From: Lewinella sp. IMCC34183 | GTDB taxonomy: Bacteria; Bacteroidota; Bacteroidia; Chitinophagales; Saprospiraceae | Length of the DNA stretch: 64,000 bases | Reading direction: 5' to 3' | Assembly (NCBI RefSeq): GCF_003390915.1 | Contig: NZ_QMEM01000007.1 | Coordinates: 124,001 to 188,000 of the forward strand | Shown here: positions 4,307-32,369 of the stretch, piece by piece | Layout of the letters: the number at the start of each line of letters is the position of its first letter | Numbering within the stretch: position 1 is the stretch's first letter | Program-made: the position numbers and the translations under genes | The notes under the pieces: generated by a model | Databases searched by the model: none | Told to the model about the DNA's origin: nothing | Seen by the model: only the letters and a program-made list of their open reading frames with translations

Positions 4307-4353
4307 TTACCGGGTAAAACAGCCCCGGCGGGGGAATGATCGCGGGCTTCTGC

Positions 4354-4420
4354 GCTGCCGGAGGCAGCATTGTACTATCGCTGCCGGAGGCAGCATCTTA
4401 CTATCGCTGCCAGAGGCAGC
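4354..4420. repeat. Three tandem hairpin repeats (26-bp period)
   Basis: The 15-base palindrome-like core GCTGCCGGAGGCAGC occurs at 4354-4368 and 4380-4394 and, with one change, at 4406-4420, separated by 11-base AT-richer spacers (attgtactatc). Each core folds as a 6-bp stem with a 3-base loop. Read on the transcribed minus strand, the array begins six bases after the stop codon of the nucleoside hydrolase gene. A further copy follows the CBS-protein gene at 37871. Confidence 0.85.
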
Positions 4421-4426
4421 ATTGTA

Positions 4427-5332
4427 CTACGGGCGGTTCAGCAGGCGCTTCCAGAAGTCGCTTGCCATGGCGGCTTCGTCGATGTCTGTGTAGATCCATA
4501 CGTCCCGCGGGATATTCTCCGGCGGGGTGGTGACCTTCCGTTTGGAGGCCCATTCCGGGTGCAGGAAGGCCTGCAGCAGGGCCACGTCCCACATGGTCCA
4601 CACCTCTGCGTCGGGTCCGTGGTCGATCCAGCGTTGCTTAAGGTAGTCCCCGATGGGGCCGGCTTGGTCGAGGCGGGCGAAGGTGGTATCCCGTTGCCAC
4701 CGGTACTGCCCGGCCGTGGAGGTAGGCATGACGTGCAGTTCCAGGCCCTCCAGGTTCAGGAGGTAGTTGGCGGCGTTGAGGTCGCGGCGGATATTGAACT
4801 CGTCCTTGTTCCAGATTCCCCGGTCGGCATCGTACTGAAAGCCAAGCACGTAGGCCCGGATACTATGCTTGATGTCGGGGGCCAGCGCCAGAGCCGAGGC
4901 GAGGTTGGTCCCCGCCCCGATGCACATGACCACCAGCTTCTCCGCACCTGCGTCCGCGCGCCTGGCCTGCTCAATGATGAACCGGGCGGCGGGGCTGTTG
5001 CGCGGCTCGTAGCCGCCCCAGGGCATACCCATGATACTGTCGGCCCCCACGGGGTGCGGCAGGTCCGTGCGGCCGGCCAGCGCGAGCAGTTCTTCGTTGA
5101 GGCGCTGGCTTTGGTAGACGGTACTGTCGCCGGAGTACTGGTGAAACCACTGGGCGGAGGTGAGGCCGCGCCAGTCGATCGCCTCCTCGCCCAGCAGGTA
5201 GGCAATGGCGTAGAGGTCGTCGATCTCGTTGGCGGTGTCGGCGTCGAGGATGAGGGGTACACGGCCGGCCGGCTGGGCGGCAAGCGGCAGCGCCCCCGCG
5301 GCGAGGAGAAACAGGAAGATCGGACGAAGCAT
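4427..5332 (-). CDS. Secreted inosine-uridine nucleoside hydrolase-like protein
   Basis: 301 residues from the ATG at 5332. The frame is open further upstream, but the first 40 codons would be unlike a signal peptide, whereas MLRPIFLFLLAAGALPLAAQ (1-20) is one. The family calcium/ribose-binding signature appears as LILDADTANEIDD (27-39), followed by typical IUNH blocks (VVMCIGAGTNLASALALAPDI, WDVALLQAFLHPEWA). The family cleaves the N-glycosidic bond of ribonucleosides; here the enzyme would act in the periplasm or outside the cell. The -7 box sits only three bases before the ATG, suggesting a leaderless mRNA. Divergent from the PUL1 hydrolase at 5451. The 3' end abuts a hairpin-repeat array. 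Nucleosidase activity itself is inferred from family membership. Confidence 0.85.
   Translation of the reverse strand: MLRPIFLFLLAAGALPLAAQPAGRVPLILDADTANEIDDLYAIAYLLGEEAIDWRGLTSAQWFHQYSGDSTVYQSQRLNEELLALAGRTDLPHPVGADSIMGMPWGGYEPRNSPAARFIIEQARRADAGAEKLVVMCIGAGTNLASALALAPDIKHSIRAYVLGFQYDADRGIWNKDEFNIRRDLNAANYLLNLEGLELHVMPTSTAGQYRWQRDTTFARLDQAGPIGDYLKQRWIDHGPDAEVWTMWDVALLQAFLHPEWASKRKVTTPPENIPRDVWIYTDIDEAAMASDFWKRLLNRP
4944..4960 (+). repeat. Dispersed 17-mer, copy 1 (16/17)
   Basis: GCACCTGCGTCCGCGCG, differing at the last base from the consensus GCACCTGCGTCCGCGCC. It lies inside the coding region of the nucleoside hydrolase-like gene, antisense to it. Confidence 0.6.
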
Positions 5333-21930: not shown

Positions 21931-22078
21931 TCAACCCAAGAACCCACAGCCCCACGCACCGCGGATTGTACGGATTCGTTCTCGCGGGTCAGGCACGGAT
22001 TTTCTACACGCCCCCCCCGCTGGCCGCGCTTGCGTAGGATCGGACCGGAGGTCCTCAACCCGGGCCCTTCCCGTTTGC

Positions 22079-28291: not shown

Positions 28292-30913
<2,622 letters not shown>

Positions 30914-30925
30914 TCCCTCTGCCCG

Positions 30926-30933
30926 TACCTTTA
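30926..30933 (+). promoter_or_regulatory. Putative -7 box directly before the small membrane protein gene
   Basis: TACCTTTA ends four bases before the ATG at 30938; initiation here would give a leaderless transcript. Confidence 0.4.
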
Positions 30934-30937
30934 GACC

Positions 30938-31105
30938 ATGGGAAGACAGTCCACCCGCCATCGCTACCGCACCCGCCGGGAGAAGAACCAGTCCGTCTGG
31001 CGGGCGGTACGCATCATCTCCGGAATGCTGCTCGTCCTGTTCATCTTCCTGCTGATCAAGAACTGGCGGGAGTGGTGGAACTACTGGAAGTTTTATTTCT
31101 ACTAA
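30938..31105 (+). CDS. Small single-pass membrane protein
   Basis: 55 residues. A strongly basic N-terminus (MGRQSTRHRYRTRREKNQ) is followed by one membrane helix (about 24-40, IISGMLLVLFIFLLI) and an aromatic-rich tail with five tryptophan or tyrosine pairs (KNWREWWNYWKFYFY). The positive N-terminus predicts it inside and the aromatic tail at the outer face of the inner membrane. It follows parC by 24 bases and precedes the 97-bp repeat array. I do not recognise the family. That it is real is suggested by the coherent topology and by a -7 box just before the ATG. Confidence 0.6.
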   Translation: MGRQSTRHRYRTRREKNQSVWRAVRIISGMLLVLFIFLLIKNWREWWNYWKFYFY

Positions 31106-31775
31106 GGCACCCCCGGGTTGAAGGCCTTCGGCCTGATAGGTAATCATCGGGCTGCAAGCCCTCAACCCATGCCTAAACCCCCGGGCTGAGGGCCTCTGGC
31201 CCGATTGCCTATTTAGATATAAGGCGCTCCGCTCAGGTAATCATCAGGCTGCAAGCCCTCAACCAAAGCCAGACCCCCGGGTTGAGGGCCTCCGGCCCGA
31301 TTGCTTACTTAGATATCACGCGCTTCGTTCAGATAGTTATCGGGCTGCAAGCCCTCAACCCATGCCTAAACCCCCGGGTTGAGGGCCTCCGGCCCGATTG
31401 CTTATTTAGATATCAGGCGCTGCGCTCAGGTAATCATCGGGCTGTAAGCCCTCAACCCATGCCTAAACCCCCGGGCTGAGGGCCTCCGGCCCGATTGCCT
31501 ATTTAGATATCAGGCGCTCCGCTCAGGTAATCATCGGACTGCAAGCCCTCAACCCATGCCTAAACCCCCGGGTTGTGGGCCTCCGGCCCGATTGCTTATT
31601 TAGATATCAGGCGCTCCGCTCAGGTAATCATCGGGCTGCAAGCCCTCAACCCATGCCTAAACCCCCGGGCTGAGGCCCCCGGCCCGATTGCTTACGTTCA
31701 TTCCGCTCGCGTGATTATCGGGCTGGAAGCCCTCAACCCATACCTGAACCCTCAGATTGAGCACCTCCGGGGCGG
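31106..31775. repeat. Tandem array of 97-bp hairpin-forming repeats
   Basis: Eight units, anchored on CCCGGG(T/C)TGAGGGCCTC at about 31113, 31181, 31277, 31374, 31471, 31568, 31665 and a degenerate one near 31751. The central spacings are 96-97 bases; the first (68) and last (86) are shortened. In each unit GGGTTGAGGGC...GCCCGAT is answered by an inverted ATCGGGC...GCCCTCAACCC about 37 bases later (for example 31376-31398 with 31436-31458), so each unit can form a long imperfect hairpin. The loop carries TTTAGATATCAGGCGCTCCG. It fills the 670-bp convergent gap between the small membrane protein gene and the thymidine kinase gene; the small open frames within it change with the repeats and are not genes. 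Confidence 0.95.
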
Positions 31776-32369
31776 TCACTTCGCAGGCCTCAGCGCCAGC
31801 ATATTCCCCATCCGGAAGCAGGTCCGGCAGCGGGCTTCGTACAGGTCTTTCTCACCCAGCACCACGGTATCCTGGTCGGGGGTGAGGCGGTAGGAGTGGG
31901 TGGCCAGGTTGCCGCAGTGGGAGCAGATGGCGTGCACCTTGGTGATGTACTCCGCTACGGCGAGCAGGTCGCCCATCGGGCCGAAGGGCTTGCCGCGGAA
32001 GTCCATGTCCAGTCCGGCGATGATGACGCGTTTGCCGCGGTGGGCCAGGTCCTGAGTGAAGCGAACGATGTCGGCATCGAAGAACTGCGCCTCGTCGAGG
32101 CCGACCACCGTGACGTCGTCCGGCACGTGCTGCAACTCCGCCGAGCGGGTCAGCGGACGGGCCACGAAGGAGTTGCTGTCGTGGGAGACCACGTTGGCCT
32201 CCGCGTAACGGGTATCGATGGCGGGCTTAAAGACGGTGACCTCCTGACCGGCGATCCGGGCGCGCTTGAGGCGGCGGATAAGCTCTTCGGTCTTACCCGA
32301 AAACATCGAACCGCAAATAACTTCCAGCCAGCCACTGCGTTGACCGCTGAAGTGAGGTTCTAAAAACAT
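31776..32369 (-). CDS. tdk: Thymidine kinase (type II)
   Basis: 197 residues from the ATG at 32369; the longer open frame upstream is the antisense of the neighbouring gene. P-loop GSMFSGKTEEL (20-30), the DEAQFF motif (Walker B and catalytic base), and a zinc-binding region with CSHCG and CRTC. The thymidine-contact region YEARCR-type and VVLGEKDLYEARC fits the family. It phosphorylates thymidine to dTMP in the salvage pathway, in the cytoplasm. Promoter box TACCTTCG lies 23 bases upstream, face to face with the promoter of the divergent gene. Its 3' end borders the 97-bp repeat array. Confidence 0.97.
   Translation of the reverse strand: MFLEPHFSGQRSGWLEVICGSMFSGKTEELIRRLKRARIAGQEVTVFKPAIDTRYAEANVVSHDSNSFVARPLTRSAELQHVPDDVTVVGLDEAQFFDADIVRFTQDLAHRGKRVIIAGLDMDFRGKPFGPMGDLLAVAEYITKVHAICSHCGNLATHSYRLTPDQDTVVLGEKDLYEARCRTCFRMGNMLALRPAK

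Follow-up and report, generated by a model that had tools for sequence, protein, structure and literature searches.

A tandem REPIN array in the parC-tdk gap of a Lewinella genome and its probable cognate RAYT

Why is the short gap between two convergent genes of Lewinella sp. IMCC34183, the small neighbour of parC and tdk, filled with copies of a long imperfect hairpin? We asked this of the 64-kb stretch of DNA that carries the locus (64,000 nucleotides, hereafter the window), of the rest of the genome and of related genomes, keeping parC and tdk as labels from the first reading of the sequence. The gap (31115-31776) between a 55-aa ORF that follows parC and tdk consists almost entirely of repeats, and its two neighbours converge, the ORF (+), which has matches adjoining parC in 4 relatives at 44-71% identity, facing tdk (-). 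TRF reported a tandem array at 31138-31694 with a period of 97, 5.8 copies and 90% matches, and the arms resolved into seven inverted pairs, with one further, degenerate arm. The left arms begin at 31115, 31183, 31279, 31376, 31473, 31570, 31667 and 31754 (spacings of 68, 96, 97, 97, 97, 97 and 87), and right arms, in the inverse orientation, at 31147, 31244, 31340, 31437, 31534, 31631 and 31718 (Table 1). A sequence-only reading had placed eight 97-bp units between parC's small neighbour and tdk. The position was right, since the array fills that gap, and there are indeed eight left arms, but only five units have the full spacing of 96-97 bp. The same reading had set CRISPR aside, and the repeat layout agrees, because the stretches between the arms are themselves repeated and there are no unique spacers. 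Within the 64-kb window, no Rfam family reached its gathering score and a tRNA/tmRNA search returned none.

Table 1. Coordinates of the array, its borders and the related features in the window and elsewhere in the genome
Feature	Position	Strand	Basis or remark
Three head-to-tail 26-bp hairpins, second REP-like family	4353..4429	+	TRF and pattern search
Single REP of the array's family, compensated stem GGACC/GGTCC	22040..22062	-	Pattern match
55-aa ORF, left border of the array	30938..31105	+	3' of parC; translation
REPIN 1, short, most of the loop absent	31115..31169	.	Arms 31115(+), 31147(-)
REPIN unit 2, mutated second arm	31183..31266	.	Arm scan
REPIN unit 3	31279..31362	.	Arm scan
REPIN unit 4, folded as DNA and RNA	31376..31459	.	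Mostly within DNA query 31382-31480
REPIN unit 5	31473..31556	.	Arm scan
REPIN unit 6	31570..31653	.	Arm scan
REPIN unit 7, shortened loop	31667..31740	.	Left arm 1 base shorter; right arm 31718(-)
Degenerate eighth left arm, no partner	31754..31776	+	Touches the tdk stop codon
tdk, right border of the array	31776..32369	-	Stop 31776-31778; G000:C55:155779-156369 minus strand plus stop codon
RAYT1, 229 aa	C34:1244319-1244600 (match)		PF01797
RAYT2	C50:477764-478030 (match)		PF01797

Each arm is itself a 22-23-bp hairpin of the form GGGTTGA-GGGCC-TCC-GGCCC-GAT. With one mismatch allowed, this motif had 18 matches in the window (2.37 expected), 13 of them within 31115-31739, and 0 of 100 shuffles reached that number. 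The two sub-hairpins that had been proposed to lie within the arms, GGGCC-TCC-GGCCC and GGGCT-GCA-AGCCC, are both present, and the one unit that was folded (31376-31459) gave the single long hairpin with paired arms that had been claimed for every unit, with z scores of -3.75 as DNA and -4.92 as RNA and with 0 of 200 shuffles equally stable. So strong an RNA hairpin, together with four terminator-like matches in 30900-31900 (0.8 expected) and a junction between convergent genes, would suit an array retained for a function at this junction, be it termination or insulation, protection of mRNA 3' ends, or binding of gyrase or a nucleoid protein. We nonetheless consider that reading unlikely, as the family is also found between divergent and tandem genes, and the sequence, number and layout of the hairpins at the junction vary between species.

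The arm is far more widespread than the array. The 22-mer GGGTTGAGGGCCTCCGGCCCGA had 151 copies in the genome at three or fewer mismatches, against 0 for the reversed control pattern. The stretches of DNA fetched around the clusters held 155 copies at four or fewer mismatches, in 30 clusters; 144 of these had three or fewer, compared with 151 genome-wide, so both counts are lower bounds, a few copies lying outside the fetched stretches. The element, 22-23 bp long and present in at least 30 clusters, thus agrees with the palindromic hairpins of 20-40 bp in many copies that define REP families. Its palindrome is kept by complementary changes: among copies picked by similarity to a reference alone, with pairing ignored, stems with two changes were compensatory in 48 of 56 copies (chance, 1 in 27), or in 19 of 26 distinct sequences, the latter being the fairer count because copies within one array are related, although even these are not independent events. 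Where there was a single stem change, a G-T pair was retained in 5 of 11 copies, and full pairing was absent from all 5 copies whose stems carried at least three changes. These observations bear on whether the array might be a plain tandem repeat that arose by slippage from a chance palindrome, with no transposase involved. Such an origin would account for units that are alike within the array and for a whole unit that occurs nowhere else, but an arm common to at least 30 clusters and to the flanks of a transposase-like gene (RAYT1, below), with compensated stems, makes slippage alone insufficient, and we regard it as very improbable. Slippage may still have been the amplification step.

Searching the genome for the whole unit had been suggested as a check, and it gave a divided answer: the unit is not found elsewhere, whereas its arms recur in other clusters. 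The query returned the parC-tdk array and one weak place. That place is a separate array, with 18 arms and units of ~111 bp; its arms are identical in kind, and its loop and spacer differ in part. The repeated element is the arm and not the whole unit. Units of the other arrays were ~70-77% alike over 66-85 bp, and 12 consensus units (for one cluster a 20-bp row stood in for its 115-bp unit) gave 37 pairs that matched one another, over up to 195 bp at 71%, so that loops and spacers appear to be partly related between arrays. Because the parC-tdk unit has no close copy elsewhere and other arrays are only ~70-77% alike, the comparison speaks for local amplification of this array, as opposed to recent movement. 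Across 60 genomes (this one and 59 others), the sole match to the whole unit outside this genome, in G050, was a 33-bp stretch with no surrounding array, and we took it as chance.

Neighbouring copies of the family were arranged as +- pairs in 52 cases (median gap, 39 bp), as -+ in 37, as -- in 23 and as ++ in 13. The 52 +- pairs and the folded unit conform to a REPIN or BIME, in which inverted REPs form one hairpin, and the tandem repetition of the inverted unit together with its flanks conforms to BIME-2; the earlier suggestion of a BIME-like repeat can accordingly be narrowed to a REPIN array that probably has a cognate RAYT. TRF found a tandem array in 12 of the 30 clusters, of which those on contigs C2 and C14 are maybe one array split by the assembly. 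REP clusters lie at the contig ends C2:116323, C14:1, C5:102157 and C55:1 (loci L088, L089, L092 and L093), and the C2 and C14 units are ~95% alike; the assembly therefore seems to break within these arrays, and copy numbers may be underestimated.

The family is mostly extragenic: by a rough gene call from codon usage, in which both tdk and RAYT1 were missed, 26 of the 30 clusters overlapped no called ORF and 4 did, two of these four adjoining RAYT1. We looked for a preference for convergent junctions and found no support for one, the 30 clusters comprising 13 tandem, 6 convergent, 5 divergent and 6 unassigned, compared with 20 tandem, 6 convergent and 7 divergent among the neighbouring genes called in the window; the parC-tdk cluster is listed here as tandem and is truly convergent, the caller having missed tdk. 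Because at least 29 other clusters contain copies, with no clear orientation preference by this rough gene call, a role as mRNA stabiliser or as nucleoid or topoisomerase site near parC is not needed to explain the array.

What, then, could have spread the arm? The PF01797 (Y1_Tnp) profile matched two genes in the genome, which we call RAYT1 and RAYT2. The nearest named relatives of the RAYT are from Neolewinella and Lewinella, in support of a Lewinella-type genome. RAYT1 is flanked on both sides by clusters of the array's own REP family (L011/L076), an arrangement expected of a RAYT gene. For both proteins the top NCBIfam family was the REP-associated tyrosine transposase (NF047646), with scores of 61.1 (RAYT1) and 49.1 (RAYT2) that fall below the curated cut-off of 80 bits. 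Among PDB sequences the sole match of RAYT1 was TnpArep, 4er8, and it was weak (E 0.0056); a profile of 21 RAYT relatives matched 4er8 at E 1e-06. A Neolewinella aurantiaca relative was modelled with a pLDDT of 91.8, and Foldseek ranked 4er8 first for this model, followed by IS200/IS605 transposases, with modest TM-scores of 0.49 and 0.63; E. coli TnpA-REP is thus the best match of the RAYT1 relatives in both sequence and fold. NHVH, a tyrosine and NP were invariant in 21 of 21 aligned relatives, the catalytic tyrosine being assigned through the alignment with 4er8. With alignment and model both taken from its relatives, RAYT1 is predicted to have the HuH motif, the tyrosine and the TnpA-REP fold, and on motifs, flanks and the modelled fold of a relative RAYT1 and RAYT2 appear to be divergent, RAYT-like proteins. 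The modelled relative (L218 2501-3145) also has two long helices (residues 27-85) between the first strand and the helix at 93-109. Gammaproteobacterial RAYTs differ from the model in this respect, as far as the sources on record go, and the portion of a subclass table on record gives, for a single subclass, no more than a 10-residue insertion there (PMC6006769).

RAYT2 is accompanied by hairpins of a second type, GTACAA(T/C)-GCTGCC...GGCAGC, the 24-mer of which had 91 copies in the genome at three or fewer mismatches, three of them within the window. An array of the first family lies ~5 kb from RAYT2 (L082 7389-7883), the hairpins that flank RAYT2 itself belonging to the second family. The embedding of RAYT1 in the same repeats as the array also tells against a MITE of a different (DDE) transposase, which would likewise be short and intergenic with inverted ends, and which we hold to be extremely improbable.

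Our explanation is accordingly that the parC-tdk array is, very probably, a REPIN cluster of the BIME-2 type, spread by its probable cognate RAYT1 and amplified locally; that is, it is probably a local cluster of small hairpins that are scattered through the genome by their own transposase-like protein. By homology with known systems, RAYT1 (HuH/Y1, contig C34) would recognise the REP as a single-stranded hairpin, cleave beside it and copy or move the REPIN into intergenic sites, where the landed REPIN and its flanks could be amplified into tandem units through slippage, unequal recombination or a RAYT-driven reaction.

A weak point of this explanation is the tag next to the hairpin. Among the 155 copies the tag was GTTG in 87, GTGG in 25, GTAG in 15, GCTG in 13, GATG in 8 and something else in 7, so that GTNG was present in 128, and the two arms had one and the same tag in 9 of the 52 +- pairs. 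The family lacks the strict GTAG tag, and we do not file it in the GTAG REP superfamily although its layout is related. In the portions of the published work on record, the tag helps choose the cleavage site; its change to GTTG or GTAC abolished cleavage in the Stenotrophomonas maltophilia system, whereas changes were tolerated in a Marinomonas system, with a shift of the cleavage site (PMC8266576). Given these effects and the varied tags found here, either RAYT1 is not strict about the tag or many of the copies are inert. Inspection of the copies by eye showed no fixed link between the tag base and a cleavage dinucleotide.

We then considered the genus as a whole, in which Y1_Tnp matches numbered 70 and occurred in 20 of 21 genomes. 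We read 42 of the 70 loci, setting aside the 22 strongest together with 6 more. At 17 of the 42 there were at least two hairpins with the head GG[TCA]NGA (the first type), with the RAYT2 locus counted over its first 4.3 kb only because the first-type array lies ~5 kb further on. Two or more second-type hairpins were present at 4, by a count that sums two overlapping patterns, so that one hairpin may count twice, and the remaining 21 had neither type at that number. A search with no prescribed head found repeated hairpins at 32 of the 42 loci, and at the same 17 a repeated hairpin had the GG[TCA]NGA head in two or more of its copies. As a control, each pattern had 2 matches in the window outside the array: for the first type, one was the true single REP at 22040, and for the second type both fell in the true copies at 4353-4429. 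Many RAYT loci differ from one another in the stem but have similar heads and tails. On the RAYT tree, in which locus L168 is cut by a contig start and four end branches are very long, the four second-type RAYTs group in a single clade (support 98/90), the first hairpin type requires 9 changes and is scattered, and the sister of RAYT1 (from genome G017; support 98/95) is accompanied by GGGTTGAG...GAT hairpins with other stems. In two relatives the RAYT frames are short (L174 and L166, of 117 and 178 aa), but both genes still have first-type hairpins on their flanks. Beside wider RAYT relatives (31 of 80 loci, including one from the genus) the hairpins were mixed, with GTAG-like tags beside several (e.g. 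L239, L243, L246, L252 and L258) and none beside others.

We compared four array-bearing junctions within the genus, measuring each gap as the distance between the BLAST matches of the flanking genes; apart from parC-tdk, these lie beside genes that we take from their sequences to be ppk, xdhC, rarA and rsmI. The ppk/xdhC gap is 985 bp here, with 13 pattern matches; in 8 of 8 syntenic relatives it is 6-84 bp and has no match. At rarA (545 bp here) 10 of 10 relatives, with gaps of 60-1102 bp, had no REP, and at rsmI (735 bp here) 1 of 9 relatives had a match, which looks like chance. The absence of the arrays from many relatives, and above all of any REP at ppk/xdhC in 8 of 8, points to gain specific to this lineage, with loss elsewhere also possible on such a comparison of sequences.

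The parC-tdk gap behaved differently. Other REP-like hairpins were present there in 4 of 4 syntenic relatives, none of which had the array itself; in the other 16 of 20 relatives the 55-aa ORF was not beside tdk in the fetched stretch, which makes them uninformative. In G013 the gap holds two first-type hairpins, separated by 117 bp and with a stem unlike that of the array, in which TRF found no tandem repeat. G017 has one first-type hairpin, also with a stem unlike that of the array, beside a 2.4-copy array of 244 bp that held no further match to the hairpin patterns, and in both G012 and G009 there is a single second-type hairpin. Set against 1 of 27 at the three other junctions, 4 of 4 gives a Fisher p of 1.6e-4, a value that covers just three comparison junctions and non-independent relatives and scores single hairpins by two hairpin patterns. 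This recurrence favours a job for hairpins at the junction, as discussed above, but recurrent landing would give the same pattern. It is conceivable, if rather doubtful, that parC-tdk is a preferred landing site for different REP-like hairpins in each species, and, in addition, that the RAYTs of this genus read a relaxed guide tag, its variable positions often being unlike in the two arms of one unit. A preference of this sort might come from single-stranded DNA exposed at parC-tdk, or a hairpin between these convergent genes might be useful and replaceable.

How closely does this REPIN cluster resemble known systems? In the passages on record for Stenotrophomonas, Pseudomonas and E. coli, REPs form inverted pairs and tandem clusters that include flanks, RAYT genes lie inside such clusters and stem changes are complementary (PMC2817692, PMC3116915); gyrase binding of BIME-2, as well as Rho-dependent termination, is also cited there for E. 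coli (PMC2817692, PMC3116915). As far as these passages go, the Lewinella family shares with gammaproteobacterial REPINs, BIMEs and RAYTs the short tagged hairpin, the inverted pairs, the tandem clusters with flanks, the RAYT gene within clusters, the complementary stem changes and a mostly extragenic position (PMC2817692, PMC3116915), and it differs in its Bacteroidota host, in its relaxed tag (mostly GTTG) and in how seldom the two arms share one tag. Like GTAG REP families 1 and 2, as described in the part of the survey on record, its tag is separated from the stem by unpaired bases, and the stem is followed by a 3-base tail (PMC3733652). Degenerate tags are given there for some GTAG families (GYAG, GYRG, GTRG and GTMG, with GTGG in one), and the GTTG that dominates here is, unlike these, none of the listed variants (PMC3733652). 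The same part assigns GTAG repeats to Proteobacteria, Cyanobacteria, Chloroflexi and PVC, and CGTC repeats to Bacteroidetes among others (PMC3733652).

A similar mixture holds for the protein. In the available portion of the TnpAY1 classification, NHVH and Y-x-x-NNP motifs are shared with subclasses 2.4, 2.6 and 2.7 (PMC6006769). Subclass 2.6 is mostly from Bacteroidetes and has 'atypical' flanking structures, and subclass 2.7 is similar in median length (213 aa), [ND]HVH and YI[LR][NQ]NP (PMC6006769). Unlike those subclasses, again as far as that portion goes, the aligned relatives mostly carry WA, WE or WN in place of WQ as their W motif, and their Y motif is for the most part YVLNNP. Because the strict GTAG tag is missing and the RAYT scores under the curated cut-off, we regard the array as a divergent example of an already known class of repeat, here in bacteria that have been little studied, and not as a new type of system. 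In the body of literature searched, nothing paired repetitive extragenic palindromes with Lewinella or Saprospir, and REPIN with Bacteroidota gave only papers that were unrelated by title.

Thus, the array between parC and tdk has been identified and tied to a transposase-like gene of the same genome. Published case studies of REPs and RAYTs are, in the passages on record, mostly gammaproteobacterial. Here a genus of Bacteroidota offers many RAYTs beside hairpins with stems of their own, sites that are absent from sister species and a relaxed tag, and it is therefore a useful test bed for how a RAYT chooses its REPs and for whether REP clusters recur at a site by chance or by use.
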